From Halorubrum salinarum (GTDB taxonomy: Archaea; Halobacteriota; Halobacteria; Halobacteriales; Haloferacaceae): DNA of 64,000 nucleotides. The stretch lies in assembly GCF_013267195.1 (NCBI RefSeq), contig NZ_CP053941.1:372001-436000 (forward strand). Direction: 5' to 3'. Position 1 is the first letter of the stretch. Each line of letters begins with the position of its first letter. Positions 14,202 to 49,097 of the stretch are shown here, piece by piece. Made by a program: the position numbers and the translations under genes. Under the pieces are notes generated by a model. The model ran no database searches and was not told the origin of the DNA. It worked only from the letters and a program-made list of their open reading frames with translations.

Positions 14202-14299
14202 CGCCGGAAGACCTGGAGCGTCTCCGAGATCGTGAGCTTCGCGACGCTCACGAGGACGCGAAGAACACCGTCGCGGCTCGAGCGGAGGTCGGAGACTAA
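14198..14299 (+). CDS. 33-residue charged miniprotein
   Basis: The frame starts at an ATG overlapping the upstream stop and ends with TAATG overlapping the start of the spike candidate. The product is a highly charged single helix (DLERLRDRELRDAHED). The double overlap suggests it is translated, either as a real small protein or as a coupling device for the next gene. It is too short to assign. Confidence 0.5.
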   Translation: MTPEDLERLRDRELRDAHEDAKNTVAARAEVGD

Positions 14300-16209
14300 T
14301 GCGAACAATCAACCGCAGGCTACTCATCGGACTTGTTCTATTAGCTATTTTTTCTGGAGCAGTATCTGGTGTGACTGTCGTTCTCTCTGAGACGGCACAA
14401 ACACCAGCTCATGATTCGTCATCTGGTTCGCTAAACGAGGGTGAAAGGGGTGTTCAGATCGGTCTGTCTGATTACCCGCCGAACACGCAACAAGTTAGCC
14501 TAACGGTCACACTATCAGACGATGTTAACGGCTACGGACCGATTGACACAGCCACGACAGTATATCTCAGGCACTACAACGGAACGCTTGTCGACACTGA
14601 GCCGATTGATAGTCAAAAGAATATCACATTCAACGGCGACTATCCAGAAGGAAAGTATCTGGTGACGGTTGATGACCCAAACAACGGTCACCAGTGGACG
14701 CGGTATTTGAGCCCTAATCTCCCATATACGTCTGAAAATGGCCGTGTCAGAATAAATGCCTCAGTTGTCAATGGGGATATTTACGATGGTGAGCCGTATA
14801 ACGTGAGGAAGGTAACGGTTGAGATCACATCAGATGTAAATAAACCAACGCTGAGTGATCCTCAACCGACTGGCGGTCGTTTAATAGAAAATTCGCCTGT
14901 CGAATTGAGCATCGACATCAGCGACCCCGACTTCGGCACGTCGGAGGGTGACGAACTTACGGTCACGTTCTACGACGAGTCTGACGGCTCAGAACTCGGC
15001 ACGCAGACAATAACGCAGAACCAGACGGTCAACGAGACGTTCGACAACCCGGTCTCAGGAACGAACGAGTGGAGCGTCCGGGTCGAGGACAGCTACGGAA
15101 ACGTCGTCGAGAGCGAGACGTTCAGCTTCCAGACGCCCGAGGTCTTGGAGCTGCGGAACGAGAGCGCGCCGAACACCCTCGTGACCGAGGAATCCGACAT
15201 CGAGGTTAGGTTCTTCGGTCGGGAGTCCGGCGAGGTGATCACCCGAACGGCCACGAACGGGACGGTCGACATGACCGGTCTCCCAGTCGACGAGCCGCTT
15301 ATCGCGTCGACCGATGTCGACGGCTACTTCCAGCGGTCGATCGCGATCGACTCTATCCTCGAGCAGCAGCGGATGTTCCTGCTACCTGAGTCGGCAGACG
15401 CCTCACAGGTCGACTGGGTCCTCGACGACAACAGCGGCCGGTTCGATCCAGGTGAGACCACGCTGTTCATCGAGCGTCCGATCGAGATCGACGGGACGAC
15501 CAAGTACCGGGTCATCTACGGCGAGCAGTTCGGTGGGACCGGCCGGACCGCGTCGACGCTCGCGACCGGTGACCGGTACCGCCTCCGTGTCGAGAACCAG
15601 GACGGGAACACCCGGCTGTTGGGGTCTTACCTCGCAGCCGGCGCGGCACAGGAGACGCTGACTGTGGGCTCCGTCGACTTCCCCGGCCTCGACGACACCG
15701 GGACCGCCTTCTCCGCGGTGCTCAACGACGAGGACGGAGTCATCGACTACCGATTCGCCGACGACTCCGCAGAGACGGACGAGCTTACAGTCGAGATCTA
15801 CAAGAACGGTGAACTCGTCCGCAACTCGACGCTCTCGGGACCGGTCCAGACGGTCCGCGAACAGGTGCCGCTGTCCGATCTGAACCACTCGGAGGGTGAC
15901 TCATACCGTATCGAGTACTCGGCCGACCGAAACGGGATCGTAATCGACGGCGAGCGGATCGTCGGCGATGTCCCCGAACTCGCGGACGACTGGAACATCG
16001 ACGCCGGCCTGCTCAACATCCTTGGGATGATCACCATCGTCGCCTCGTTCGGTGGCGTGGTCATCTTGTCACCGCGTCACGCCGGCATCGTCGCCTTCTC
16101 GGTCGCGTTCGCGCTCTCGATCATCGGTGTCGTCGCGATCAACCAAGTCCTCATCGGGCTGGGATTCGTGGCCAGCGGCCTCTTCGCCGCAGCCGGAGGG
16201 AATCCATGA
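14299..16209 (+). CDS. Spike-like surface protein with Ig-like domains
   Basis: The 636-residue protein has an N-terminal signal/anchor (about 7-29) and a long strand-rich exterior region with many N-glycosylation sequons. At least one Ig-like repeat is recognisable (about 185-280, with TLSDPQPTGG ... SVRVEDSYGNVV). The C-terminal 65 residues form about three membrane segments. Bases 14299 to about 14900 (residues 1-200) are visibly AT-rich and use A/T-ending codons, while the rest is GC-rich like the neighbours. This suggests replacement of the outer domain. It is the best candidate for receptor binding or membrane fusion. It starts at the TAATG overlap. Confidence 0.75.
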   Translation: MRTINRRLLIGLVLLAIFSGAVSGVTVVLSETAQTPAHDSSSGSLNEGERGVQIGLSDYPPNTQQVSLTVTLSDDVNGYGPIDTATTVYLRHYNGTLVDTEPIDSQKNITFNGDYPEGKYLVTVDDPNNGHQWTRYLSPNLPYTSENGRVRINASVVNGDIYDGEPYNVRKVTVEITSDVNKPTLSDPQPTGGRLIENSPVELSIDISDPDFGTSEGDELTVTFYDESDGSELGTQTITQNQTVNETFDNPVSGTNEWSVRVEDSYGNVVESETFSFQTPEVLELRNESAPNTLVTEESDIEVRFFGRESGEVITRTATNGTVDMTGLPVDEPLIASTDVDGYFQRSIAIDSILEQQRMFLLPESADASQVDWVLDDNSGRFDPGETTLFIERPIEIDGTTKYRVIYGEQFGGTGRTASTLATGDRYRLRVENQDGNTRLLGSYLAAGAAQETLTVGSVDFPGLDDTGTAFSAVLNDEDGVIDYRFADDSAETDELTVEIYKNGELVRNSTLSGPVQTVREQVPLSDLNHSEGDSYRIEYSADRNGIVIDGERIVGDVPELADDWNIDAGLLNILGMITIVASFGGVVILSPRHAGIVAFSVAFALSIIGVVAINQVLIGLGFVASGLFAAAGGNP

Positions 16210-16948: not shown

Positions 16949-17319
16949 GGCCCGCCTTCCGGATGATCGGCCAGATCCTCACGATGCCGATCGGCATCGC
17001 CCACGAGGGCGTTCACTCGTTCGCCGCCGCGCTGGTCGGCCTCGACGCGCAGATCGTCGTGAAGCCGAACGGCTCGACGTGCCACGTCGACTTCGAGCCG
17101 GCGAGCGCGGCACAGCAGGCGCTCGTCGCGCTCGCGCCGACGCTGACGGCGTTGCTCCTCGCCGGGCCCATGTGGGCCGCCTTCGGCGACGGACGCGCCG
17201 TGACGGCGCTCGTGGTCACGAGCGCGCTGCTGCTCTTCGGAGCGCCGTCGCGGGCCGACCTGAGTACAGCTCTGAGACCGTTCCACTCGACAAAAACAGA
17301 CCATGCCACGAGGAACTAA
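16945..17319 (+). CDS. Membrane protein with HEGVH motif (site-2-protease-like)
   Basis: The 124-residue protein carries HEGVH at about residues 20-24 inside a hydrophobic segment (IGIAHEGVHSFAAAL), matching the HExxH zinc-protease signature as placed in membrane-embedded M50-type proteases. A second hydrophobic region (about 62-80, LAPTLTALLLAGPMW) and a third (about 87-100) follow. It is much shorter than classical M50 enzymes and lacks an obvious third ligand motif, so it may be a minimal or inactive form. It overlaps the next gene by 17 bases. It could process envelope proteins of this cluster. Confidence 0.6.
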   Translation: MRPAFRMIGQILTMPIGIAHEGVHSFAAALVGLDAQIVVKPNGSTCHVDFEPASAAQQALVALAPTLTALLLAGPMWAAFGDGRAVTALVVTSALLLFGAPSRADLSTALRPFHSTKTDHATRN

Positions 17320-19954
17320 CAGCAACGACGGTGCGGAGATGAACCGAGCGCAGAGACGACAGCAGGCGACCGAGCGGCGCCAGCAGACCGCCCAGAGCCT
17401 CGGAACCGACCCGGGCGAGGTACGCGTCCAACAGCGGCGAAACCGGAACACGGTCGCACTCAGCGGCGAGGGCGAACAGGATGTCCGGCAGGCACAGACC
17501 GCGGACTCGGAGTACATCCGACCCGACGACCTCAACGTCGAGGACAGCGGCCCCGGTATCGAGGTCGGCGTCGCCGAGACCGCGCGGCAGGACATCGCCT
17601 CGCGGGTCAAGCAGGACGTCGCCGGGCAGAGTCGCTTCGCGCGTCCCGGTGACGTCGCCGTCGAAGTGACCGAAGCCGGCGTCGAGAAGGTCGACGTCGA
17701 CCAAGCCGCGATCCGCTCGCGGCGGCGCGCATTCGAGCAGCGTCAGGCGCGCCGCGAGGCCGCGAGCGAGCTCTCCGACGAACTCGGCCGGGACGTCGAC
17801 CCGTCCGACATCGAGATCTCGGACGGGCAGGCGACGCTCGCCGACGACGCGGCCCAGGAGGTCATCGACCAGCAGCGAAGCGACCTCCGCTCAGACGCGG
17901 CCGAGGAGTTCGACGTCGACCCGTCGCAGGTCGAGATCTCCAAGCAAGACGGCGAACTGGTCGCGCAGGCCGACGTCGAGCGACAGTTCGAGCAGCAGTT
18001 CAAGGGCGACCCCGCCCGCGGCATCCCCGGCGTGAACGTCGCCCGCGAGGCCGCGCGGAGACAGGTGGCCGACGAGCTGGGCGTCGAGGCCGAGGACGTT
18101 GAACTGAGCCGGCAGGACGGGCAGGTGATCGCCGAGGCCGACGTTCCGCGCGACACTCTCCCGTCGGACAGTACCTCAGTCGGGGCCGGTCTGGGAGGAA
18201 ACGTAGACACGACTTCCTTCAACCTCCCGTCTCGGAGTGGTTCGGGAACAGCATCGACTGACACTTCGACATCGCCGGGCGCGCTCGCGACCGTGACGGG
18301 CACGGCGGCGAGCACGCTCGCGAACAACCCGGTCGGGAACGCGATCGGAAGGGGTGCGGACGCGCTGTTCGGAACTGACTCGCCGGATAGTGGTGTTCTC
18401 GGTGGTGTAGCGGACCGGTTGGATACCGAGGCCGAGGACATCAATAACACATTCGCAGACCAGATCCGCGAGAGCGATCCGAGCCGTACCCAAGCGGTAG
18501 CACCAGGAGTCGGCGGCTTGTCCGCAGCGGCGAATAGCGAGTTCATCCGGGGTAGTGCCGCGACCGCGACGGAGTTGGCGAATCCGGCTGCCGCCGGACG
18601 CGATCTAATAAACCTCGGCAGTGCTGGCGCCCAGGTGGCGGACTTCGTCGCTGATGAGGGCCCTGAAGGCGCTCAGGTAGTTCTCGACGCCGCTGAGGCT
18701 GGTGCGCGCGCCGCGCCCGGAGCGGTTGTCGACGTGGCTCAGGCGGCCCGAGACAATCCGCAAGAAGCTGCGGAGGTCGGAACCGCAGTCGTCGCCACGG
18801 GCGTCGCCGGTGGAGCAGGCTTCCGAGGTGTTCGTGGCGCCGCGTCGGGAGCGCGTCAGCTGACACGACGACTCGACGCCGATCTCGCGGAGTTCCGTCG
18901 GGCCAACCGCGCCCAGGGGCAGATCGGAAGCCAGCGTTCCCGGGATACTGTCGACTTCTCGGACGCGCAGAGCGGTCGCGACTTCGAAGCCGACCTGCGA
19001 CAGGAAGACCTCACCCAACGCCAGGAGATACTCCGTGACCAAGCGACTCGAGAGCAACGTGTCACGGAAGACCTCGTCGACAACCCGCGAAGCGCGGACC
19101 CGATCGGGACGGGCGGACGCGGGCCGACGATCGATCCGGATCGACCGCCGCGGGCCGGGCCGTCTCGACCGACGACACGGACGCAGAGCGTCGGGCAGAA
19201 CGTTCCGCGGGAGATGGCCGGTCTACAGCGTGCGAACAACGTCCCGACGGCAGACCTCCGGACCACGGTGGATGTCACGCCAACCGCTACGTCGACGTCG
19301 GGAGCCGCTCGCGGTGCCGCGGCGGCGACGGGAGCAAGCGGCTCTCGAGCTCCCAGCCAGCTCGTCGACGCAGACGGTAGCGTAATCGAGCCCGCCTCGG
19401 GCCTCGACATCACGACGCCGCGGCCAGCGACCGAAACAGGCACGACGACGGCCACGACGACGCTCGCGGACCAGGTCACCGGAACGCAGGCCGCAACGAC
19501 CACAGGAACCGCTACAGCGTCCGCGGACGCGTTCCTGAACCAAGGTCTCGGGACTGCGACGGGAACGCGATCGAGTGCCGTTCCGAGCGGTGTTGGTCTC
19601 GGTACGCGCCCAGGCGTGAGAACAGGTCTCCGCCCCGGCCAGCGTGTCGGCACCCGGACCGGGACGGGGCCGCGCCAGACGCCGAGATCGGCAGCGCCCT
19701 CGGCATCGCGTGCCAGTTCGGCCAGCACAGCCGGATCAACCGCAACTACTGCGAGTGAGCGAATAGCGAGAGCATTACCAGGAGGGGTTGGAAGTAGAGG
19801 CCGAGGGCGCCGAGGCCTACCAGAGTTTTCGGCTGATGGCGAATCTGAAGAAGGGGAAGTCCCGGAAAACTTCATTGAGAGTACCTTCGACAATCCGATT
19901 GCCTCCGTAACCGAGGTAGAAAGAGAACTGGAGGAATTCTTTGAAAGAGGTTAG
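17303..19954 (+). CDS. Large repeat-containing protein ending the envelope cluster
   Basis: The 883-residue protein has no clear signal peptide. It contains about four copies of a motif with the pattern (sLG/ELG/EFD)-V-D-P-S-x-[IV]-E-[IV]-S-x-[QG] at roughly 24-60, 145-186, 190-227 and 247-283. Alanine/glycine-rich hydrophobic stretches (about 325-350 and 430-530) follow. The tail of about 650-840 is disordered and rich in threonine, arginine and serine, and the end is acidic. An internal or membrane-associated scaffold is plausible. The last roughly 200 bases become AT-richer. The start at 17303 has no strong ribosome site; ATG 17339 is an alternative. Confidence 0.7.
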   Translation: MPRGTNSNDGAEMNRAQRRQQATERRQQTAQSLGTDPGEVRVQQRRNRNTVALSGEGEQDVRQAQTADSEYIRPDDLNVEDSGPGIEVGVAETARQDIASRVKQDVAGQSRFARPGDVAVEVTEAGVEKVDVDQAAIRSRRRAFEQRQARREAASELSDELGRDVDPSDIEISDGQATLADDAAQEVIDQQRSDLRSDAAEEFDVDPSQVEISKQDGELVAQADVERQFEQQFKGDPARGIPGVNVAREAARRQVADELGVEAEDVELSRQDGQVIAEADVPRDTLPSDSTSVGAGLGGNVDTTSFNLPSRSGSGTASTDTSTSPGALATVTGTAASTLANNPVGNAIGRGADALFGTDSPDSGVLGGVADRLDTEAEDINNTFADQIRESDPSRTQAVAPGVGGLSAAANSEFIRGSAATATELANPAAAGRDLINLGSAGAQVADFVADEGPEGAQVVLDAAEAGARAAPGAVVDVAQAARDNPQEAAEVGTAVVATGVAGGAGFRGVRGAASGARQLTRRLDADLAEFRRANRAQGQIGSQRSRDTVDFSDAQSGRDFEADLRQEDLTQRQEILRDQATREQRVTEDLVDNPRSADPIGTGGRGPTIDPDRPPRAGPSRPTTRTQSVGQNVPREMAGLQRANNVPTADLRTTVDVTPTATSTSGAARGAAAATGASGSRAPSQLVDADGSVIEPASGLDITTPRPATETGTTTATTTLADQVTGTQAATTTGTATASADAFLNQGLGTATGTRSSAVPSGVGLGTRPGVRTGLRPGQRVGTRTGTGPRQTPRSAAPSASRASSASTAGSTATTASERIARALPGGVGSRGRGRRGLPEFSADGESEEGEVPENFIESTFDNPIASVTEVERELEEFFERG

Positions 19955-20004: not shown

Positions 20005-20583
20005 ATGGGGTTGAAAGGTTTTCTTGTGCGCTCAATCAAAGGGACTATTCTCTTTTATCTCGTCCTGGGATTGATCGGTTTGGTGATCGTCGGTGGAATC
20101 GCTGTCTTGGAATCTGGAACTGGTTACGATTTTGGACCCGAACCGATCTCTGAAGAGGAAGTTGAAGATGAAATGGTTCAAAGGATCAACTCGGAGCGTT
20201 CAAAACAGTATTTAAACAACCTTACTGAACTCCAAGCGGCTGATGAGTTGGCAAGTAGGCATACCGAGGTAATGAATGAATCTGGAGAAATTTCTAACAT
20301 CGCCGGTAACTGGAGCATCGGAAATAGCCTCGGGTCAATTGGTTGCGAGCCCGGTGGTGAAACTGTAGCAAAATCATACGTGTTTGAGTCTGTTGAGTTG
20401 GAGAATGAGACGATATACGTCGAGGACGCATCTGAGACCGCGGAGATGTTGGTGAAGATCTGGATGAATTCAGAACCGAATAGAGATATGATAATGAATC
20501 CACGTTGGGGTGGTGTTGGAGTTGGCGTCACAATCAATGAAGATGATGAGGTCTACGCATCGTTGATTGTCTGCGGTGTTTGA
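20005..20583 (+). CDS. Membrane-anchored CAP/SCP-domain protein
   Basis: The 192-residue protein has one N-terminal membrane segment (about 13-36). The exterior domain fits the CAP (cysteine-rich secretory/PR-1) family: INSER and a leucine-rich stretch (about 55-75), LASRHTEVM with a histidine near 85, a central HxN-like region that is weak, and WMNSEPNRDMIMNPRW (about 151-166) followed by glycine/valine strands ending in LIVCG. The gene is AT-rich unlike its neighbours, suggesting separate acquisition. Its own promoter, with ATAGATATACAATC, lies at about 19972-19985. The role on the element is unknown; CAP domains in other systems bind lipids or act outside the cell. Confidence 0.75.
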   Translation: MGLKGFLVRSIKGTILFYLVLGLIGLVIVGGIAVLESGTGYDFGPEPISEEEVEDEMVQRINSERSKQYLNNLTELQAADELASRHTEVMNESGEISNIAGNWSIGNSLGSIGCEPGGETVAKSYVFESVELENETIYVEDASETAEMLVKIWMNSEPNRDMIMNPRWGGVGVGVTINEDDEVYASLIVCGV

Positions 20584-29672: not shown

Positions 29673-32600
29673 TCAGTCGTCGCTCGACACCTGACCGGTC
29701 GCGTCGGCGTCGGCGTCCGGCACCGCGGCGGCGGGCGCGGGCGGCTCGTCGCGCACGTCGGCGCCCGTGCCCTCCGCGATGACCTCCGCGTACGCGTCGG
29801 GGAAGACGCGGACGAAGTCGTCGAGCGCGGCCTCCCAGTCGTCGAGGAGGTCGGCCGCGCGCTCGCTGTCGGTGTACGCGCGGTGGTTCTCGACGAGCCG
29901 GCGGAGCATCCGCTCGTCCGACCCCTCCAGCGTCTCGGAGACCGACACCATCCCGCGGTTGACGCGGTCGTCGAGGCGGTCGTCGGGGTCGTACACGTAG
30001 GCGATGCCGCCGGACATCCCGGCCGCGAAGTTGCGGCCCGTGTCGCCGAGGACGGCGACGACGCCGCCGGTCATGTACTCGCAGCCGTGGTCGCCGACGC
30101 CCTCGACGACCGCTTTCACGCCCGAGTTGCGGACGCCGAAGCGCTCGCCGGCGACGCCGTTGACGTACATCTCGCCCGCGGTCGCGCCGTACAGACAGAC
30201 GTTGCCGGCGACGACGTTCTCGGTCGGGTCGTACGCCGCCTCGGCGGGCGTGTCGATCACGAGGCGCCCGCCGGAGAGCCCCTTGCCGACGTAGTCGTTG
30301 GCGGCGCCCGACAGCTCCATCGTGATCCCCGGCGCGAGGAACGCGCCGAAGCTCTGCCCGGCCTCGCCGTCGAACCGGCAGGAGATGGTGTCGTCCGGGA
30401 GGCCCTCGCCGCCGTGCTCGGAGACGACGCGGTTCGAGAGCGTGGCGCCGACCGCGCGGTCGACGTTGCGCACGTCGCGGGTGAGCGCGACCGGCGCGCC
30501 GTCCTCGATGGCGGGCGCGGCCTCCTCGATGAGGTCCCAGTCGAGCAGGTCGTCGATACCGGAGTGAGCCTGCTCGCGGACCTTGGTGCGCGACTCGCCC
30601 GCGGGCTCGGCGATGACCGCCGAGAGGTCGAGGTGCTTCGCCTTCTCGTGGTCGGTGTCGCGCTGAGACAGGAGGCCGGGGCGACCGATGAACTCCTCTA
30701 ACTCCGTGTACCCCTGCTCGGCCATTATCTCGCGCAGCTCCTGCGCGATGAACGTCATATAGTTGATGACGTGGTCCGGCTGCCCGGGGAACCGCTGGCG
30801 GAGGTCCTCGCGCTGGGTGGCGACGCCGACCGGGCAGGTGTTCTCGTGGCACTGCCGGGCCATCACGCAGCCCGAGGTGACGAGCGACGCGGTGCCGAAG
30901 ATGTACTCCTCGGCGCCCAAGGCGGCCGCGACCGCCACGTCGCGGCCGGTCCGCAACCCGCCGTCCGCGGAGACGCGAATGCGGTCGCGCAGCCCGGTGG
31001 CGCGGAGCATCTGGTTCGCCTCCGCGAGCCCGAGCTCCCACGGCAGACCGGCGTTCTTGATCGAGGTCTTCGGCGAGGCGCCGGTGCCGCCGTCGTGACC
31101 GGAGACGTGGACCACGTCGGCGTTCGCCTTCGCGACGCCGGCCGCGATGGTCCCGATGCCGGCCTCCGAGACCAGCTTCACGTTCACGTCGGCCTCGGGG
31201 CTCGCGGCCTTCAGGTCGAAGATGAGCTGCTTGAGGTCCTCGATCGAGTAGATGTCGTGCTGGGGCGGCGGCGAGATGAGCCCGACGCCCGGCGTGGAAC
31301 ACCGGACGTGCGCGATCATCTCGTTGACCTTCTTGCCCGGGAGGTGGCCGCCCTCGCCGGGCTTCGAGCCCTGCGCCATCTTGATCTGGAGCTCCTCGGC
31401 GCTCGCGAGGTACTCGGAGGTGACGCCGAAGCGGCCGGAGGCGACCTGCTTGACGGTACACTCCTTCTCGGTGTCGAACCGCTCGGGCGGCTCGCCGCCC
31501 TCGCCAGTGTTCGACTTCGCGCCCAGCCGGTTCATCGCGATGGCGTTGTTCTCGTGGGCCTCCGGCGAGATGCTCCCGAGGCTCATCGCGGCCGTCGAGA
31601 AGCGCTCGACGATCGACTCGACGGGCTCGACCTCCTCGACCGGGACCGGGTCGCGGTCGGAGTCGAACTCCAGGAGCCCGCGGAGCGACTGGAGCTCCTC
31701 GGTCTGGTCGTTCACCAGCTCCGCGAACTCCCGGTACTGCTCGTAGTCGCCGCCGCGGACGGCCTGCTGGAGCGTGCCGACCGTCTGGGGGTTCCAGCCG
31801 TGTTTCACGCCGGACGAGCGGTGCTCGTACTCGCCGACGGTCTCCAGTTCGGGGTCGGCGCCGAACGCCATCGCGTGGCGCGTGCGCAGGTCGTCTTCGA
31901 TCTGCTCGATCCCGATCCCCTCGGTGCGGATCTCGGTCCCCTCGAAGTACTCGGCGACGAACTCGGAGTCGAGCCCGACCGCCTCGAAGATCTGGGCGCC
32001 CTGGTACGACTCCATCGTCGAGATGCCCATCTTCGCCATCGTCTTGAGGAGGCCGTCCTCCAGCGCGTGGCGGTACGCGGCGAGCGCCTCGTCCTCGTCG
32101 GCGCCGTCCGGTCCGGCGACCACGTCGGCGATGGAGGCGTACGCGAGGTACGGGTCGACGGCGTCGGCGCCGTAGCCGACGAGCGTCGCGAGGTGGTGGA
32201 CCTCGTGGGGCTCGGCGGACTCGACGACCACGCCGGCGCGGTTGCGGAGCCCCTTGCGGACGAGATGGTGGTGGACCGCGCCGGTCGCGAGCAGGCTCGG
32301 CACCGCCAGGCGGTCCGGACCCACCGCGCGGTCCGAGAGGACGACCACGTCGGCGCCGTCCTCGATTGCGGCCGCGGCGTCCTCGCGGACCCGGTTGACG
32401 GCGTCGACGAGCGACCCGTCGCGGTCGTAGGTGACGTCGACGACGACGGAGGTGAAGTCGGGGCGGTCGGCGGCCCCGTCCGCGTCGCCCGGGCTCCGCT
32501 CGCCCGGTCCGGGCAGGTCGCGGAGAGCGGTCGTCTCGGCGTCCGTCAGGACCGGGGAGTCGGCGACGATCTGCTCTGCGTGCTCCGGCGTCTCGTCGAG

Positions 32601-34373
32601 GAGGTTGCGCTGGTTGCCGATGCGCGTCTCGAGCGAGGTGACGAGCTCCTCGCGGATGTAGTCGATCGGCGGGTTCGACACCTGCGCGAACAGCTGCTTG
32701 AAGTAGGTGAACAGCGGGCGGTCCACGTCGGCCAGCACCGAGAGCGGGGTGTCGTCGCCCATGGAGCCGACCGGGTCCTTCCCGTCCTTCGCCATCGGCT
32801 CGACGAGGTGGTTCAGCGAGTCGGTCGTGTAGCCGAACGCGGCCTGGTGGGCGCGGACGGTGGGTTCCGCGTCCCCGTCGTCGGCGTCGTCGGCCTCGTC
32901 GACCGAGTCCGCGCCGATCCCGGCCGCGGCGTCGTCCTCGTCGGTGAGGGCGTCGAGGGCGACCTGGCCGTCCTCGACCCACTCGCCGTACTTCTCGTCG
33001 GTGAGCTCCTCGAACACCTCGTCGTCGGGGACGATCCGGCCCGCCTCGGGGTCGGCGACGAAGATTTCACCAGGCTGGAGCCGGCCCCGGCGGCGCACGT
33101 CCGCGGGCTCGGTCGGGAGCGCGCCGACCTCGCTGCCGACGACGAGGCGGTCGTCCGTCGTCACCTCGTAGCGACACGGGCGGAGCCCGTTGCGGTCTAA
33201 GACGCCGGCGACGCGCTCGCCGTCGAAGCCGATGACGAGGGCGGGGCCGTCCCACGGCTCGACGAGGGAGGCGTGGTAGTCGTAGAAGTCCGCGCGGTCG
33301 TCGTCCATCAGGTCGTCGCCGCGGAACGCCTCCGGGATCAGCATCCGGAGCGCGTGCGGGAGGTCGCGGTCGGTGTGGAGGAGCAGTTCGAGCGCGTTGT
33401 CGACGCTCGCGGTGTCCGACTGGTTCGGGTCGTCGATCACCGGCTTGATCGTGTCGAGTTCGGCCCCGAACGCCGGGTGTTCGAGGTCGTTCTCGCGGGC
33501 CCGCATCCAGTTGACGTTGCCCCGGATCGTGTTGAACTCGCCGTTGTGGACGATGTTGCGGTACGGGTGCGCGAGGTGCCACGCGCCGAGCGTGTTCGTC
33601 GAGAACCGCGCGTGGACTAAGGCGACGTGGCTCGCGAAGCGCTCGTCGGTCAGGTCGGGGTAGTAGTCCGCGAGCTGCGAGCCCTTGAGGAGGCCCTTGT
33701 AGACGACGCGCTGGCGGTCGAGCGAGCAGACGTAGAAGCGCCCCGCCCCGTCGACCTCCGAGACGGCGTTCTCGATCTCGCGGCGGGCCGCGTACAGCGC
33801 GCGGTCGAACCCGAGCAGGTCCGGGTCGGCGTCGTCGGGGCGGTTCCCCTCGCTGGTGAACCGCTGGGCGAGCCCCGCGCCCTCGACGGGCGCGACGAAC
33901 ACCTGCGACACCTCGGGCTCGGAGTCGAGCGCGGTGGCGCCGAGGTCGGCGTTGTCGGTGGGCACGGACCGCCACGCGAGCACCTCCAGCCCGTAGACGG
34001 CGCACACCTCGGCGATGACGTCGTGTATCTCCGCCTGAACGCCCGGTTCCGGCGGCATGAACACGGAGCCGACCGCGTACTCCTCGGGGAGGTCGGCGTC
34101 GACGACCTCGCGGAAGAACTCGTCCGGTCGCGCGACCATGATCCCCGCGCCGTCGCCGGTGTTCTCCTCGGCGCCGGTGGTCCCGCGGTGTTCGAGGTTT
34201 TCGAGCAGTTCGACCGCGTCCGCGACGGTGTCGTGCGACGGCGCGCCCTCGAGGTCGACGACCCCGCCGATGCCGCAGTTCGACCGGTCGTCCGTCGGCG
34301 CCGCGAGCCCCCCCTCCTGACCCGAGGACTCCGAGTCGCGTACGCCCCGGGTGGTACTACGTGACTTGGTCAT
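29673..34373 (-). CDS. gltB: Glutamate synthase, large subunit
   Basis: The 1566-residue enzyme makes two glutamates from glutamine and 2-oxoglutarate. The N-terminal class II amidotransferase begins at C33 (NCGIGGVVD) after a 32-residue serine/arginine-rich leader. The central and FMN-binding synthase domains follow (about 520-1230), with the 3Fe-4S cysteines in CVMARQCHENTCPVG. The C-terminal glycine-rich beta-helix GXGXG domain contains GEMYVNG and NFAAGMSGG. No small subunit gene is adjacent, so it may be ferredoxin-dependent. An acidic, low-complexity insert lies at about 495-515. The upstream region has TATA-like sequence (about 34444-34453). Confidence 0.95.
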   Translation of the reverse strand: MTKSRSTTRGVRDSESSGQEGGLAAPTDDRSNCGIGGVVDLEGAPSHDTVADAVELLENLEHRGTTGAEENTGDGAGIMVARPDEFFREVVDADLPEEYAVGSVFMPPEPGVQAEIHDVIAEVCAVYGLEVLAWRSVPTDNADLGATALDSEPEVSQVFVAPVEGAGLAQRFTSEGNRPDDADPDLLGFDRALYAARREIENAVSEVDGAGRFYVCSLDRQRVVYKGLLKGSQLADYYPDLTDERFASHVALVHARFSTNTLGAWHLAHPYRNIVHNGEFNTIRGNVNWMRARENDLEHPAFGAELDTIKPVIDDPNQSDTASVDNALELLLHTDRDLPHALRMLIPEAFRGDDLMDDDRADFYDYHASLVEPWDGPALVIGFDGERVAGVLDRNGLRPCRYEVTTDDRLVVGSEVGALPTEPADVRRRGRLQPGEIFVADPEAGRIVPDDEVFEELTDEKYGEWVEDGQVALDALTDEDDAAAGIGADSVDEADDADDGDAEPTVRAHQAAFGYTTDSLNHLVEPMAKDGKDPVGSMGDDTPLSVLADVDRPLFTYFKQLFAQVSNPPIDYIREELVTSLETRIGNQRNLLDETPEHAEQIVADSPVLTDAETTALRDLPGPGERSPGDADGAADRPDFTSVVVDVTYDRDGSLVDAVNRVREDAAAAIEDGADVVVLSDRAVGPDRLAVPSLLATGAVHHHLVRKGLRNRAGVVVESAEPHEVHHLATLVGYGADAVDPYLAYASIADVVAGPDGADEDEALAAYRHALEDGLLKTMAKMGISTMESYQGAQIFEAVGLDSEFVAEYFEGTEIRTEGIGIEQIEDDLRTRHAMAFGADPELETVGEYEHRSSGVKHGWNPQTVGTLQQAVRGGDYEQYREFAELVNDQTEELQSLRGLLEFDSDRDPVPVEEVEPVESIVERFSTAAMSLGSISPEAHENNAIAMNRLGAKSNTGEGGEPPERFDTEKECTVKQVASGRFGVTSEYLASAEELQIKMAQGSKPGEGGHLPGKKVNEMIAHVRCSTPGVGLISPPPQHDIYSIEDLKQLIFDLKAASPEADVNVKLVSEAGIGTIAAGVAKANADVVHVSGHDGGTGASPKTSIKNAGLPWELGLAEANQMLRATGLRDRIRVSADGGLRTGRDVAVAAALGAEEYIFGTASLVTSGCVMARQCHENTCPVGVATQREDLRQRFPGQPDHVINYMTFIAQELREIMAEQGYTELEEFIGRPGLLSQRDTDHEKAKHLDLSAVIAEPAGESRTKVREQAHSGIDDLLDWDLIEEAAPAIEDGAPVALTRDVRNVDRAVGATLSNRVVSEHGGEGLPDDTISCRFDGEAGQSFGAFLAPGITMELSGAANDYVGKGLSGGRLVIDTPAEAAYDPTENVVAGNVCLYGATAGEMYVNGVAGERFGVRNSGVKAVVEGVGDHGCEYMTGGVVAVLGDTGRNFAAGMSGGIAYVYDPDDRLDDRVNRGMVSVSETLEGSDERMLRRLVENHRAYTDSERAADLLDDWEAALDDFVRVFPDAYAEVIAEGTGADVRDEPPAPAAAVPDADADATGQVSSDD

Positions 34374-34561
34374 ACGCGTTCCTACGGATGAACAGTTAAA
34401 GGTATGACCCTGATAGGGGTAGGATCCATCGTACACACATTAGGGAATATAAGGTAATTATTCATCACGGGTGGTGAACAGATGACACACCACCGGGATT
34501 GGTCGGAAGTGCCGGTTTTTCGCCCCGATAATTGGTGGAGTAACCCAGAACACACCGCGAA

Positions 34562-34606: not shown

Positions 34607-34774
34607 TTACTCTCGGAGGGGGACGAACGAGCCGTTGATGTCCCACTCGTGGATACAGTAGACGTTGCCGGGGTCGTCCGCGATCCGCCACCCCTCCACC
34701 TCGTCGTCCCATCGCTCCTCGCGCCCGCAGAGTTCGCACGCGCGCTCCTTCGGCGGTGTGATGGTCACGCCCAT
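34607..34774 (-). CDS. HEWD-family small zinc protein
   Basis: The 55-residue protein has CELCGR near the N-terminus, a later cysteine and histidine in YCIHEWD, and ends INGSFVPLRE. The HEWD motif defines a conserved haloarchaeal small-protein family of unknown function; the two cysteine-containing segments suggest a zinc site. I chose the ATG at MGVTITPP. It is a single gene. Confidence 0.8.
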   Translation of the reverse strand: MGVTITPPKERACELCGREERWDDEVEGWRIADDPGNVYCIHEWDINGSFVPLRE

Positions 34775-34882
34775 GATCGAGCGAAAGGCGTCAGCGAGCA
34801 AAAACGTACCGACGGTCGGCGACCACGGAACTGGATCGCGACGCGATCCGACGGCTCGTCAGAACGACGGTCACGCCCGCGC

Positions 34883-37800
34883 TCACGTCCCTCCCTCGCG
34901 GCGCCGGGCGAGCAGCGACGCCCCGGCCACCGCCGCGAGCGACGCGACGGGCCCGAACCCGGGGAGGTCGTACGCGGTCGATCGGATCGGCGCGTCGTCG
35001 TAGCCCAAGTCGCTCGCGTCGGCCTCGTCCGAAGGGGGTTCGCCCGACACGGACGATTCCGAGAACTCGCCCGAGCCACCGGGGGCGGCCGACGCCGCGC
35101 CGCCGCCATCACCGTTTTCGGTGCCGCTCGACGGTCCGTTCTCGCCGTCGCTCGGCCGTCCGTTCTCGGAGCGGGAGTTCGCCGCCGCGGAACCGTCTGG
35201 ACCGGGTTCGAGCCTGCTAGGTCCGGAGAGCTCTGCCGGCCCCGCGGCCGGCGGGATCTCGGACGTTCCGGGGGCGATCGGGACATCGACGCCCGGCGGC
35301 CCCGTCGCCCGGCCGAGGTCCGAGCCGGTCGATCCGTCGGGTCCGCCGCGACCACCGGCGTCGGTGGCGGTAGCCCCGTCGGAGCCGGTGGCGCCGCCGG
35401 CCCCGCTCGGACTGCCAGCCGAACTAGTTCCCGAAGACTCGCCGGTAATCGAACCGCCGACGCCCGAAGCGCCACCGCTCGAACCCCCACCGTCCGAGCT
35501 TCCACCGGCCGAGCCGCTACCCGTGTCCGAGCCGGTCGCCGCACCGGACTGACCCGACGGCGCCGTCGCGACCGACGCGGTCGTCTCGGTGGAGTCGGCG
35601 GTCGAGTCGACGCCGGCGTCCCCCTCGCTCGGATCTGCGGCGTAGGTCAACCCGGTCGTCACGCGGTGCCCGTCGTCCGCCGCGGTCCGGCGGAGTCGAT
35701 CGTCGTCCACCCGAAAGGCGGCCTCGAACGTCTCCCCGGGGTCGGGGGTCGTTCCGGTTCCGAACGCGCTGTCGCCGGCGACGACGAGGTACAGGCCGTT
35801 CCGGTCGAGGTGGACTGCGGACTCGTTCGGCGTACGACCGAGCGCGTTCCCGTCGGACCCGTTACCTGCGTCCGTGGCCGTCGGTTGGACCCCAAACTCG
35901 AGGCCGTCGAGGCAGTCGAGATCCGCGCCACGCTCCAGTGATCCGTTCGCGGTCGCCGCGAGGCCTGTTAGGCCCGTCGCGTTCACCGCGTACACGACCG
36001 TGTCGTTCGCGGTCGCGGCCGTCGCCTCGGTGAGCGTTCCGTCGGCGATCGCCTCCCGGACCGCGGTCGCGTTCTCGAAGTCGCCGCGGTCGACCGCCCG
36101 CGTCGTGTACGCCGTCAGGTTGTTCGTCGATCGGGGTTTCACGGTGACCGTGACAGTGTCGTTGGCGACCTCGGTGCCGTGTTCCGACCGGAGTGTGAGG
36201 TCGTACGTCCCGGGAGTGAGCAACCCGGTGTCCCCGCTGACCGACTCGACGCTGATACCGGTGCCTGTCGTGACGAAGTTCGACGGGGATTCCGGCGACG
36301 CGTATGTATTAATCGTGACGGGTGTCGGGCCGGTCTCGTTGGTTGTCAGGTTGAGTGTTGTGGCGGTACTGTTTGATGATACCAGAGACACTGAGGAGTG
36401 CTCATAGGTCGAATTGAGTCTTAAATCGAGACGACTTCCACTGATGATTTCATCAGATACACCATTATTAATTGTTGTATTTCTATCATCAACTATTTCT
36501 ACAGTATTGGCAGCAGTAGTATTAGTGCTCAGACCCTTTATTCTCACTGAGTATGTTCCAACTTGAGAGACAGAAACATGAGTTCTTATAGTAGAATTAT
36601 TGTCTGACAATAATTCATTTTGATGTACATTTTCGCTGTTCGGTCCTGTGACACTAATGGCAACAGTACGACTGGTTCCGTTTGTATCGATATCTATCGG
36701 TATCTGAGATCCGTTTACTGTATCAGTTGTTTCAAGATGGATTGAAGAATCGAGTAACCGGATGGTTGTATTTTTCATTCCGGAATTAGAATACAGTGAG
36801 TAATAGCCTGTACTGAGATTATCTGTGCTTATTTTATGAATATGACTTGTCCTGTTGAATTCAATTTTTCTAACAAAGCTACTATTTGATTTTGCCAGAT
36901 TATAATCGTGTTGAGCATTCAGTCGAACAGCGATATTTGAACCTTGATTGGTTGTATACTGGCCTTCGCTGGATATCATTTTATCTACACGCACAGGCGA
37001 TCCGAACTGACTATTGAATGGTACCCTACTGGAAGTAGATACCACGTCACTAACTTTGAGTCTATCAATACGTGGCTGGATTTCTTGATTGGATAGGTTG
37101 GCCGCACGGAATGGATAAACATACAAAAATTCGCCATCTACATCATATGCTCCCGATTGGTTCTCAAGTGATATACCCGTTTTATTATTATCAGAGAAGT
37201 TAGCAGAAATGTATCCCTGAGTATCGGAGATATTCGTATTGAATTCAAATAGGAGTGTTCTGTTGGGTTCAGGATCAGAAGTTAGTTTGCTGTAATAAAA
37301 TGGGCCACTCACGAGTTGAATAGGCACAGCGACATCAACAGTCGTTGAGTCCAGTGCGTATATCGCATCGGAACCGTGAACTGTCTGTGGAGAGTGAATC
37401 CCGATTACCAGTTCCGTTTTACCTTCAATATCCGTGCCTTTGAGAGAGATGTTATCGCTTGATGTCTCAACAGTTTTGATCTTTCTGCCAATCTTCCCAT
37501 TCTGTTTCTTCTGCCAAAGTGTGACAGAAGTATTGAGACTCAAATTGTCATTGATAGAGTAGTCGTAAGAAACTGACCGTGTGGATTTGTTATATGTATT
37601 GGACTCAAAGTTGATTGAACCAGGAGAGTGTATACTGAACTCAACAGGAGCTTCTGTTTCTTTCTGTTTAGCCGTATACGAGACGACATTATTTATTTTC
37701 GCCCCCTCCTTATCATATTGAGTTACGTTGGTTGTATCGATATTATCGATATATACGTCAAATCGTCCGGGACTGGGGATTGCTGAAGCAGATACAATGA

Positions 37801-38143
37801 TTGTCGCATTTGAGCTGTTAGGATTTTGTACATACACATCCGATCTACGTATGTTCCCATCAACATTTATCCAATACGATGTCCCGTTACGATCCAATTG
37901 TGCTCCAGACTCAACAAGACCTCCAATGTGAATTTTAACCGGCCGATTGGAATCAAGAACTTCAATATTACTAATTACCTGCTGTTGTTCGGTTCCAATA
38001 TCAAGATCGCTTGCTCCATCTACGTCCCATAATTCACCGGAAGCAGTGAGTGTTCCTGAGACGATTAAAATCATAACAGAACCGATCACGAAGCAAACGA
38101 CAATACCGGCCCACAGCCATCGAAGCGATCGCGTCCGGATCAT
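34883..38143 (-). CDS. Large PGF-CTERM cell-surface glycoprotein, compositional mosaic
   Basis: The protein of about 1086 residues has an N-terminal hydrophobic signal segment (about 8-32) and a long exterior region with dozens of N-x-S/T sequons. A glycine/serine-rich stalk (about 840-1030) follows, and then a C-terminal DLPGFGPVASLAAVAGASLLARRR. That is a PGF-CTERM sorting signal for archaeosortase A, which is encoded at 48135. Residues 1 to about 615 (36300-38143) are encoded by AT-rich DNA with A/T-ending codons, and the rest by GC-rich DNA. A BGTF-like surface domain may lie at about 680-830. I chose the ATG at 38143; a TTG at 38149 is possible. Confidence 0.82.
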   Translation of the reverse strand: MIRTRSLRWLWAGIVVCFVIGSVMILIVSGTLTASGELWDVDGASDLDIGTEQQQVISNIEVLDSNRPVKIHIGGLVESGAQLDRNGTSYWINVDGNIRRSDVYVQNPNSSNATIIVSASAIPSPGRFDVYIDNIDTTNVTQYDKEGAKINNVVSYTAKQKETEAPVEFSIHSPGSINFESNTYNKSTRSVSYDYSINDNLSLNTSVTLWQKKQNGKIGRKIKTVETSSDNISLKGTDIEGKTELVIGIHSPQTVHGSDAIYALDSTTVDVAVPIQLVSGPFYYSKLTSDPEPNRTLLFEFNTNISDTQGYISANFSDNNKTGISLENQSGAYDVDGEFLYVYPFRAANLSNQEIQPRIDRLKVSDVVSTSSRVPFNSQFGSPVRVDKMISSEGQYTTNQGSNIAVRLNAQHDYNLAKSNSSFVRKIEFNRTSHIHKISTDNLSTGYYSLYSNSGMKNTTIRLLDSSIHLETTDTVNGSQIPIDIDTNGTSRTVAISVTGPNSENVHQNELLSDNNSTIRTHVSVSQVGTYSVRIKGLSTNTTAANTVEIVDDRNTTINNGVSDEIISGSRLDLRLNSTYEHSSVSLVSSNSTATTLNLTTNETGPTPVTINTYASPESPSNFVTTGTGISVESVSGDTGLLTPGTYDLTLRSEHGTEVANDTVTVTVKPRSTNNLTAYTTRAVDRGDFENATAVREAIADGTLTEATAATANDTVVYAVNATGLTGLAATANGSLERGADLDCLDGLEFGVQPTATDAGNGSDGNALGRTPNESAVHLDRNGLYLVVAGDSAFGTGTTPDPGETFEAAFRVDDDRLRRTAADDGHRVTTGLTYAADPSEGDAGVDSTADSTETTASVATAPSGQSGAATGSDTGSGSAGGSSDGGGSSGGASGVGGSITGESSGTSSAGSPSGAGGATGSDGATATDAGGRGGPDGSTGSDLGRATGPPGVDVPIAPGTSEIPPAAGPAELSGPSRLEPGPDGSAAANSRSENGRPSDGENGPSSGTENGDGGGAASAAPGGSGEFSESSVSGEPPSDEADASDLGYDDAPIRSTAYDLPGFGPVASLAAVAGASLLARRREGGT

Positions 38144-38415: not shown

Positions 38416-39099
38416 TCAGTGCTCGACCGCTTCCATCATCGCGAGCAGCTGTTCGGACTGCTCGACCTCGACCGGGTGGAGCCCCACCAGCGCGATCACG
38501 TCCTCGCTGTCCGCGTCGGCCGCCTGGTGCTGGATCGTCGTGAGGTAGAGGAGGACGGGGATGTCCTCGACCGACCCGCTCTGCCCGTTCGAGCCCTCGA
38601 CGTCCGCGCTGACGGTCGTTTCGAAGACGGAGATGGTCGCCTCCTGACCGAGGATCGTCCGCGTCTCCTCGCCGCGCGCCTCGATGTCGTCCGTCTGGAT
38701 GTCGGCGTTGCCGCCGCCGATGTCCTGCTGGTTGACCTGGTTGAGGAGCCGGCGGATGAGCTCGGCCCCCTCCACCCGGACGAGCGGATTGACCGACTGG
38801 CCGGCGACCGACGCGTTCGGGGTGCTCGCCACGAACAGCGCCGACTGGGTCGTCGGGTTGACGTACCGGGCGACCCACGTCGTCGCCGTCACCCGCGCGT
38901 TCACGCCGGTGGCGTTGAACTCGCGGTCGATGCTGAACGACTCCGGCTCCTGACCGTCGTATCCGGAGTCGCTGTACGCGCTCTCCGGGACGCGCGCCGG
39001 TTCCGCGTCGAACTCGTAGCTGCCGTCCTCGCCGGCGCATCCCGCGACCGCGACCGACGCCGAGGCGGCCATCGCCGCGAGCAGTCCACGTCGTTTCAT
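38416..39099 (-). CDS. Haloarchaeal lipoprotein (DUF6517-like)
   Basis: The 227-residue protein starts MKRRGLLAAMAASASVAVAGC, a twin-arginine-type signal ending in a lipobox cysteine at residue 21, so it is probably exported folded and lipid-anchored. The mature part is mixed alpha/beta with VTATTWVARYVN and a C-terminal VGLHPVEVEQSEQLLAMMEAVEH, which fits a conserved haloarchaeal lipoprotein family that I recall as DUF6517. Function unknown. It is transcribed divergently from the next gene. Confidence 0.75.
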   Translation of the reverse strand: MKRRGLLAAMAASASVAVAGCAGEDGSYEFDAEPARVPESAYSDSGYDGQEPESFSIDREFNATGVNARVTATTWVARYVNPTTQSALFVASTPNASVAGQSVNPLVRVEGAELIRRLLNQVNQQDIGGGNADIQTDDIEARGEETRTILGQEATISVFETTVSADVEGSNGQSGSVEDIPVLLYLTTIQHQAADADSEDVIALVGLHPVEVEQSEQLLAMMEAVEH

Positions 39100-39212
39100 A
39101 TGAACGCGTAGGTCCACACAGTTCTTTAAGACTATCGCCGAGGGTATCGGTCGCGAGAACGCCGGGGCCGAAGGCACAAAGTTCACGTCGGGGCGTGCGC
39201 GACGTGAGGCAA

Positions 39213-39980
39213 ATGGAACGCCGAGGACAAACCGGGCTGGTGGAAGCGCTCTTCTTAGACGTTGTTCGCCTCCACGAGACGTGGATGGAGGTGGTCTTCC
39301 CCCGACAGCTCGACCCGAGCGCCGTCCTGGGGAAGTGGAAGCCCGAGACGACGGTTCAGTCGGTCGGCTACTACCTCTGGGCGGTGCTCGGCGCGCCGCT
39401 CGTCGCGGTCGCGTACCCGCTGTTGCTCGTCGGGTTCGCCACGCGCTACTACGCGGCGAAGCTCGACTCGGCGGTCACCCGCATCGGCGTCGCAGGCGCG
39501 GTGCTCGTCGCGGCCGTCGTCTGGGGGACGCTGACGGTCATCACCCACCTCCAACTCCCGTTCGACGCGGTGATCGCGGTCGGCGCCGCGAGCGCGGTGG
39601 CGGTCGTCTCGGCCGCGCTCGCCGCCGGCTTCTCGAAGCTGGGCGGGCGGTTCGTCAGCGTCCTGCTCGCGTACCCGTTCGCCATGACGGCGCTGTTCCT
39701 GCCGCCGGTCGTCGCCGCGCTCGTCACGCCGACGCTGGAGGAGCTGATCTTGCCGCCGAGCTACGACCTCGCGCGGTGGATCCTCGACACGTTCCTCTCG
39801 GTGGGCGGCATAAACGAGATGCTCCGGGGCGCGTTCGACCTGGAGACGTTCGGCGAGCAGTGGGGGCTCCCCGGGCTGGGCTACGTGCTGATGTGGATCG
39901 GCATCTCGGTGCCGCTCGGGTGGTTCCTCGGCCTCCTCGTCGCGCTGGCGAACCTGATCCGGCCGGCCGACGACGCCTGA
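39213..39980 (+). CDS. Multi-pass membrane protein
   Basis: The protein of about 255 residues has an amphipathic N-terminus (FPRQLDPSAVLGKWKPE) and about five hydrophobic segments (about 51-75, 88-106, 115-140, 150-175, 225-248). No family is recognised. I chose the ATG at MERRGQ, downstream of GTGAGG; an earlier start adds six residues. The gene ends next to a 25-bp tandem repeat. Confidence 0.7.
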   Translation: MERRGQTGLVEALFLDVVRLHETWMEVVFPRQLDPSAVLGKWKPETTVQSVGYYLWAVLGAPLVAVAYPLLLVGFATRYYAAKLDSAVTRIGVAGAVLVAAVVWGTLTVITHLQLPFDAVIAVGAASAVAVVSAALAAGFSKLGGRFVSVLLAYPFAMTALFLPPVVAALVTPTLEELILPPSYDLARWILDTFLSVGGINEMLRGAFDLETFGEQWGLPGLGYVLMWIGISVPLGWFLGLLVALANLIRPADDA

Positions 39981-48134: not shown

Positions 48135-49097
48135 ATGTTCGGCCACGGCGTGCCGGCGGTGTTGAGCGTGATCCCCGACACGTTCACGTTCGCGTGGATC
48201 GTCGCGATCCTCTTCGCGATCTCGTGGGCGCTCGACAGCCGCGGACTGGCCGCGGGGCGCGTCCTTGCGGCCGCGACGTGGGCGCTGTTCGGGCTCTTCT
48301 GGCTGTCGACGGTGCCGTACTTCGCGTTCGAACACCAGAGCTACGTCGAGTCGATCCTCGCTTTGGTCGGCTTCCCCGCCAGCGTGTACGCGGGGTACCT
48401 CCTCTACGACGGACGGGCCTCGCTTTTCACCCTCACCCGGGCCATCGCATTCATGTTGTTCATCTACCTCCCGTTCGAGACCATCCCGGCGTTCACCGTC
48501 GCCGGGGTCGCGGTCCCGGAGCCCCGCCGGGTCCTCATCGAGATCGTGGCGTCACAGACCGGCGCGCTCATCGACCTGCTCGGGTACGCGCCGGAGGCGG
48601 TGGCGAGCAACGAGGGGTACGACGCGGCGTACTCGTGGACGCTCGACGACGGCCACACGGTCGTCATCCACATCGTGCTGGCGTGTACGGGGCTCGGGAG
48701 CATGGCCATCTTCGGCGGGCTCGTGGCCGCCGTCGAGGCGCCGCTCACGAGGAAGCTCCGCGCGCTCGCGGTGTCGATCCCGCTCATCTACGGGCTGAAC
48801 ATCCTCCGGACGACGTTCATCTCGGTCGTGTCCGGCAACCAGTACATGCACTGGTACCCGGACCTCGTGATGACGATGTTCGGCGCGACCGACCCGTACC
48901 GCGTCTCCTTCCTCATCTCCGACCGGATCATGAGCCAGCTGTTGGCGGTCGTGGCGCTCATCGCGATCACCTTCCTCGCGGTGCGCGAACTGCCCGAGCT
49001 GGCGGTCATCTTAGAGGACGTGCTCTACCTCATCACCGGCGAGGAACACGACCTGACGGAGGCGCTCGACCTCCCGCGCGAGCCGACGAACCGGTAG
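48135..49097 (+). CDS. artA: Archaeosortase A
   Basis: The 320-residue multi-pass membrane enzyme removes PGF-CTERM signals and supports lipid attachment of surface proteins. Expected catalytic residues are C184 in LACTGLGSM, R225 in LNILRTT and R264 in SDRIMSQ. About eight hydrophobic segments cover the protein, and the C-terminal tail is cytoplasmic and acidic. The PGF-CTERM protein at 34883-38143 is a probable substrate. A possible TATA element, CTTTATTCG, lies about 25 bases before the ATG. Confidence 0.92.
   Translation: MFGHGVPAVLSVIPDTFTFAWIVAILFAISWALDSRGLAAGRVLAAATWALFGLFWLSTVPYFAFEHQSYVESILALVGFPASVYAGYLLYDGRASLFTLTRAIAFMLFIYLPFETIPAFTVAGVAVPEPRRVLIEIVASQTGALIDLLGYAPEAVASNEGYDAAYSWTLDDGHTVVIHIVLACTGLGSMAIFGGLVAAVEAPLTRKLRALAVSIPLIYGLNILRTTFISVVSGNQYMHWYPDLVMTMFGATDPYRVSFLISDRIMSQLLAVVALIAITFLAVRELPELAVILEDVLYLITGEEHDLTEALDLPREPTNR

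Follow-up and report, generated by a model that had tools for sequence, protein, structure and literature searches.

A predicted two-type exposed domain in a PGF-CTERM surface glycoprotein across the genus Halorubrum

Positions 34883–38143 (minus strand) of the window, the 64,000-nucleotide stretch of Halorubrum salinarum DNA analyzed here, encode a 1086-residue PGF-CTERM surface glycoprotein. Judged from sequence, its predicted exposed domain is a genus-wide trans-species dimorphism: the same two allele classes occur in many species, and the allele trees predate the species splits. The gene was defined by its open reading frame, its GC step, its TIGR04126 match, and its syntenic orthologues in the genus, and the window genome carries the type 1 allele. 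We consider it rather probable that this is an idiomorph-like locus at which two unrelated exposed domains are swapped on constant ends and have been kept through the radiation of the genus.

Gene architecture and predicted anchoring

The gene begins with a signal peptide segment (38045–38143, minus strand, end approximate) that is kept within a clade regardless of type, and both types of the same clade share the start MIRTRSLRW. The exchangeable AT-rich cassette (36366–38098, minus strand, borders approximate; type 1 of two) was delimited by identity borders, profile A1, the two-type split, and the GC step. The cassette measures about 1.75 kb, and the exposed domain has about 550 residues. 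Single-sequence structure prediction of the cassette returned a mean pLDDT of 34.5, and comparison of the profiles with solved structures gave no significant match. The GC-rich C-domain common to both types (35597–36346, minus strand) occurs in 46 of 52 genomes of the genus and in 106 of 170 of the family. It is followed by a GC-rich stalk (34970–35596, minus strand), rich in Ser, Gly, and Thr in the translation, and by the PGF-CTERM sorting signal (34898–34969, minus strand; residues 1059–1082) with its PGF, hydrophobic stretch, and basic tail. The preliminary description, made from the letters of this DNA, named a PGF-CTERM end and an archaeosortase 10 kb away, and profile searches bear out both. 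TIGR04126 scores 27.8 bits against an NCBIfam cut-off of 24.5, and the Pfam PGF-CTERM model falls slightly below its cut-off (16.8 versus 18.8). Archaeosortase A, the expected processing enzyme, lies 10 kb from the gene at 48135–49097 (plus strand; TIGR04125, 332.8 bits, cut-off 75). The C-terminal signal and the cognate enzyme in the genome make the product a predicted archaeosortase A substrate.

The product is predicted to be a secondary surface glycoprotein with an ArtA-type anchor and not the S-layer protein, because the S-layer models do not match it and two other genes do match NF041335. A search of the window protein for S-layer models and signals (NF041335, TIGR04216, and TIGR04207; E up to 0.01) returned only TIGR04126, and the two other genes of the window genome match NF041335 with E values of 1e-90 and 3e-71, both below the curated cut-off. 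The C-domain is a distant relative of one domain of the S-layer glycoproteins of haloarchaea, with 3 of 21 members matching Pfam DUF7827. Its profile matches S-layer-like proteins outside the genus with E values down to 6.5e-20, and two such proteins match NF041335. A separate S-layer-like gene elsewhere in four close relatives (L239–L242 in G027, G045, G051, and G048) has an N-terminal part only 33–58% identical and downstream DNA 85–91% identical.

Two cassette types at one syntenic locus

The locus was compared in 52 genus genomes, one per species, and in 170 family genomes. A search with the window protein recovered the N-terminal half from 28 of the 52 genus genomes. Synteny was compared in 47 stretches from the genus. 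The order is a conserved membrane-type protein without a Pfam match (39195–39980, plus strand), a DUF6517 gene (38416–39186, minus strand), the surface glycoprotein gene, a small neighbor with the motif HEWD (34607–34801, minus strand), and the glutamate synthase large subunit gene gltB, identified by Pfam (29673–34436, minus strand). The membrane-type protein and gltB were used in the locus tree. This order is kept in most loci examined, and the copies therefore occupy one orthologous place. Both types have the same neighbors, and none is linked to a type. Some are missing in loci at contig ends or outside the main clades, and the loci of G020, G050, G044, and G039 have none of them. Scanning for glutamate synthase on wider genome contigs returned mostly bacteria, and no neighbor except gltB was present in the 80 loci retained from that scan. 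Among L144 (G014), L149 (G018), and L168 (G006), two have reading frames that stop before the PGF anchor and one has a stop in the cassette; these are decayed alleles or sequence errors. In at least 7 of the 52 assemblies a contig ends within the cassette or at its margin, compared to about 1.9 expected from rounded contig counts (G001, G002, G003, G007, G009, G026, and G039; L146, L166, L182, L184, L185, L187, and L188). Such ends could arise from a mixture of alleles in the sample or from low coverage of AT-rich DNA.

Clustering of the N-terminal halves gave two large groups of 20 and 23 members and three unplaced rows. Profiles were built from the two groups, two of them from clade I alone, and they clearly assigned all 44 N-halves of at least 87 residues, 20 to type 1 and 24 to type 2. 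The previously unplaced G050 falls to type 2 by profile, and the other two unplaced rows, G001 and G039, were too short for typing. The strongest cross-type E value was 2e-7, in two rows, and the rest were 3e-6 or weaker or absent. Alignment of the type 1 and type 2 profiles with hhalign found no homology over about 480 residues, only about 72 columns beside the C-domain. By type profile the 52 genomes comprise 21 of type 1, 27 of type 2, and 4 without a type call, and 0 of 52 carry both types at the locus. Weak partial type 2 matches lie elsewhere in three type 1 genomes, and in G045, a type 2 genome, the S-layer-like gene partially matches type 1. The window genome has one type 1 match and no type 2 match in the profile search. 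A silent second cassette elsewhere in the genome was rejected, since at the profile threshold none of the 52 genomes held both types beyond these short partial matches. The number of codons before the C-domain is 575–599 in 36 of 38 genes and 452 in two type 2 copies. In these two, L172 (G004) and L169 (G036), the profile match starts at about position 137, and they read as type 2 cassettes that have lost an outer segment. The dN/dS ratio is 0.16–0.24 in six same-type pairs, which indicates purifying selection on each type, and a hypervariable tip was rejected on these grounds and on the presence of only two states. Cassette dS in the same six pairs is 1.9–3.9 times the C-domain dS of the same gene. 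This fits older alleles, and it could also reflect a higher local mutation rate.

Evidence for exchange comes from close relatives of opposite type. In the sister genomes G047 (type 1) and G021 (type 2), upstream DNA is 87–97% identical at the nucleotide level and the opening 30 bp of the gene 93–100%. Identity then falls to about 39%, which is chance level, within the cassette and recovers to 94% over the C-domain; the stalk follows with 87%, the PGF end with 99%, and the next 100 bp downstream with 100%. The preliminary description had called for comparing the locus among strains for a constant 3' part and a variable 5' part, and the sister genomes display that arrangement, with 87–100% identity on both sides of the cassette, from the flanking DNA to the C-domain and PGF end, against 39% within it. 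The first identity border lies between about +30 and +45 bp, the second about 20 bp ahead of the C-domain. Seven other opposite-type pairs have the same profile with more divergent flanks (cassette 38–43%), and cassette identity is 65–85% in nine same-type pairs. These data strongly support exchange of a predicted exposed domain on a conserved anchor.

The distribution of the types was examined on a flank tree of the 40 loci that have gltB. It requires 12 type changes compared to a shuffled mean of 13.4, a value as low as that in 136 of 500 shuffles, and its supported branches force at least 11. The C-domain tree requires 13 changes compared to 14.1 after shuffling. Within a type, cassette distances track the flanks, with Mantel r values of 0.89 for 17 type 1 loci and 0.86 for 19 type 2 loci, and 0 of 2000 permutations were as high for either type. 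Inside clade I the correlation is weak (r of 0.26 and 0.46; 165 and 17 of 2000 permutations as high), which points to some within-clade exchange or to noise. Because type is scattered on the flank tree and cassettes within a type follow the flanks, both types predate the clades and have been handed down in parallel.

Full-length cassette types are confined to this genus among the 170 family genomes. In genomes beyond the genus the C-domain is preceded by partial segments resembling type 1 or type 2, and G102 carries both kinds, each at its own locus; the two types therefore probably descend from old surface-protein variants. Viral or plasmid relatives were not found at the sensitivity used, and a viral or plasmid source was rejected for lack of a match.

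Base composition of the cassette

The preliminary description placed a step from an AT-rich front to a GC-rich back near 36300, and the measurements agree. The best single GC change point in 34883–38143 is at 36303 (0.41 to 0.73). The best GC3 change point follows codon 596, at about 36356 (0.35 to 0.84), with a log-likelihood gain of 142. GC3 is intermediate in the signal peptide region (0.53 over the first 40 codons), and the DNA flanking the gene on both sides has the usual GC-rich composition. Among 46 genes with the C-domain, window included, 42 were evaluable, with 340 codons or more ahead of the C-domain, and all 42 have the step. Gains are 77–203, GC3 is 0.25–0.51 before the step and 0.69–0.91 after it, and the step lies −30 to +11 codons from the C-domain start. 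Four genes with short N-halves (22–114 codons) were left out of the count: G003 and G006 (87 and 114 residues; gains 28 and 46) and G001 and G039 (22 and 28 residues; gains 2 and 4). A gain of at least 79 is found in 38 of 38 full-length homologues, and a gain of 60 is reached by 2 of 137 other long coding-like open reading frames flanking homologous loci.

The types were compared in 38 full-length genes (18 type 1 and 20 type 2). At fourfold sites the cassettes have a GC of 0.30 (type 1) and 0.29 (type 2), and their C-domains 0.84 and 0.86. The two types also resemble each other in amino-acid use and in sequon number (means of 22.8 and 20.8, respectively). Amino-acid use alone was rejected as the cause of the step because fourfold sites also have it. 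The step was likewise rejected as a general property of S-layer-like genes: such relatives inside and outside the genus have weak composition steps only, and 20 C-domain open reading frames from paralogous loci and other genera gain only 1–48 (two without a C-domain, with gains of 2 and 13, were left out). Two unrelated cassette types share the same low composition, so the cause points to the locus, where AT-rich composition appears to be imposed.

These results separate two parts of the exchange reading that the preliminary description had drawn from composition. The swapping of an exposed part on a conserved anchor stands. The recent foreign acquisition that the AT content was taken to mark does not, since the same internal step in full-length homologues of many species, the refuting observation that the preliminary description named, is present in 42 of 42 evaluable genus copies and argues against a recent AT-rich import, and the two unrelated types are equally low in GC. 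A single recent AT-rich import was rejected on the same count. An analogy with a spike candidate in the upstream element was also proposed; no viral relative was found, and the analogy therefore lacks sequence support. Of the element's possible spikes, the protein at 14299–16209 (plus strand) has a weaker GC3 step (0.44 to 0.85 at codon 202, gain 56) and that at 17303–19954 a small step in the opposite direction (0.88 to 0.66, gain 24). An AT-rich gene at the element's end (20005–20583, plus strand; GC3 0.48) matches phrog_16914, a moron or host-takeover family.

Fourfold changes in the cassette were polarized by parsimony, and the counts are rough given saturation and parsimony bias. AT-to-GC changes number 147 compared to 79 GC-to-AT changes, and the inferred equilibrium GC is 0.42 for the cassette (present value 0.28) and 0.69 for the C-domain. 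In the C-domain the count tilts in the other direction, as parsimony bias would predict. Slow amelioration of cassette GC is possible because of the excess of AT-to-GC changes.

Maintenance of the two types and comparison with known systems

The dimorphism that we favor would be kept as follows. Every intact copy would be exported and carry an ArtA-type anchor, with signal peptide, C-domain, stalk, and PGF anchor constant, and homologous recombination in the conserved ends would exchange one unrelated domain of about 550 residues for the other. The identity borders point to the replacement, and from them we infer the crossover itself. Both types would have persisted while the genus radiated, with each clade holding both and each species population probably doing so as well. 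Negative frequency-dependent selection on the exposed surface protein would be the likely keeper. Viruses that use or avoid the protein would be the most plausible selecting agent, because a Halorubrum pleolipovirus is reported to fuse on a trigger from an S-layer component identified as a PGF-CTERM protein (PMC8875312), and surface variation is commonly attributed to viruses, as summarized in PMC6011602. Opposite-type cassettes could not pair, GC-favoring recombination or conversion would be weaker there, and the cassette would become AT-rich; non-pairing alleles are a speculative reason for its low GC.

A recognition role may fit as well as the virus reading. The two types might govern adhesion, fusion, or DNA exchange like mating or self/non-self idiomorphs, and two dissimilar alleles at one locus, the lack of detectable clustering on the flank tree, and parallel upkeep across the genus agree with such types; cell fusion is known in haloarchaea. 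However, there is no partner gene and no type-linked neighbor, the neighbors being the same in both types, and viruses would yield the same pattern, and we rate recognition types as unlikely. A two-allele archaeal recognition system in the full sense, whose idiomorphs are within-species cell types held near parity for the life of the genus and AT-rich since unlike alleles cannot recombine, we regard as rather unlikely.

Other histories could place two types on one anchor. If AT-rich N-halves had been imported repeatedly onto a native anchor, with viruses or AT-rich genomes as donors, this would account for the low cassette GC and the excess of inferred AT-to-GC changes, but the cassette phylogeny of each type follows the genus, both types have the same composition, full-length types occur only in this genus among the 170 family genomes, and viral or plasmid relatives are absent at the sensitivity used; we consider this history decidedly unlikely. 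Just as doubtful is a pair of ancient paralogues that underwent differential loss and whose ends gene conversion homogenized, no alleles being exchanged at a single locus. The C-domain proteins outside the genus with either type-like segment, including the two in G102, speak for it, and ancient paralogy probably does explain the distant origin of the types. Against it as an account of the locus, each genome has one copy at one syntenic place, the identity between sister genomes runs up to both borders, and the changes forced by supported branches would demand too many parallel losses. Surface proteins often phase-vary, and the other cassette might be stored silently and then switched. Neither the 52 genomes, short partial matches aside, nor the window genome, with its single type 1 match, holds the second cassette at the profile threshold, and phase variation is very unlikely.

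The trans-species dimorphism that we favor has relatives among described systems. The homeocassettes of Halorubrum ezzemoulense are described in PMC11078007 as islands of several genes within a single species, the paired versions having homologous genes. As in homeocassettes, the two types here occupy the same place and exclude each other. Measured by a share of homologous content of at least half, the ends and the C-domain are common and the cassette lacks detectable homology over about 480 residues. In contrast to the islands of that paper, the unit here lies inside one gene, the types are without detectable homology over those residues, and the pair spans a genus; Table 1 of the paper has no glutamate synthase locus (PMC11078007). 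The Haloferax S-layer glycoprotein types, as presented in PMC5867893, are likewise strongly divergent surface glycoproteins of close relatives and are PGF-CTERM anchored. In that account each type marks a whole clade and it is the S-layer gene itself that differs; in the present case the types are spread over the tree, and the window genome has two separate S-layer-like genes. Strong divergence of surface glycoproteins between close relatives is also reported in outline for S-layer variation in Halorubrum lacusprofundi (PMC6011602). An Ig-domain module of Thermococcales is another archaeal surface-type protein at one locus, in a conflict or self-recognition context, but as outlined in PMC8416519 it is hypervariable with changing downstream genes, whereas the present locus has two states and constant neighbors.

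Among the titles and abstracts that searches of open-licence literature listed, we found none that describes this locus or a two-type ectodomain. Prokaryotic surface variation is usually regarded as open-ended, and a strict two-state polymorphism across a genus, if true, would be a rare prokaryotic case of balanced polymorphism shared across species. It would have sharply defined ends and a simple genotype readable by one PCR, and it opens two questions to direct testing: which features of haloarchaeal surfaces are read by viruses or cells, and why GC drops in alleles that do not pair. Fungal mating-type idiomorphs are dissimilar alleles at one locus, certain Plasmodium surface antigens fall into two classes, and flagellin H antigens have a variable middle between conserved ends. 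Unlike these, the present system is archaeal and its protein is predicted to be lipid-anchored. The persistence of two types across the genus resembles that of mating or blood types across species.
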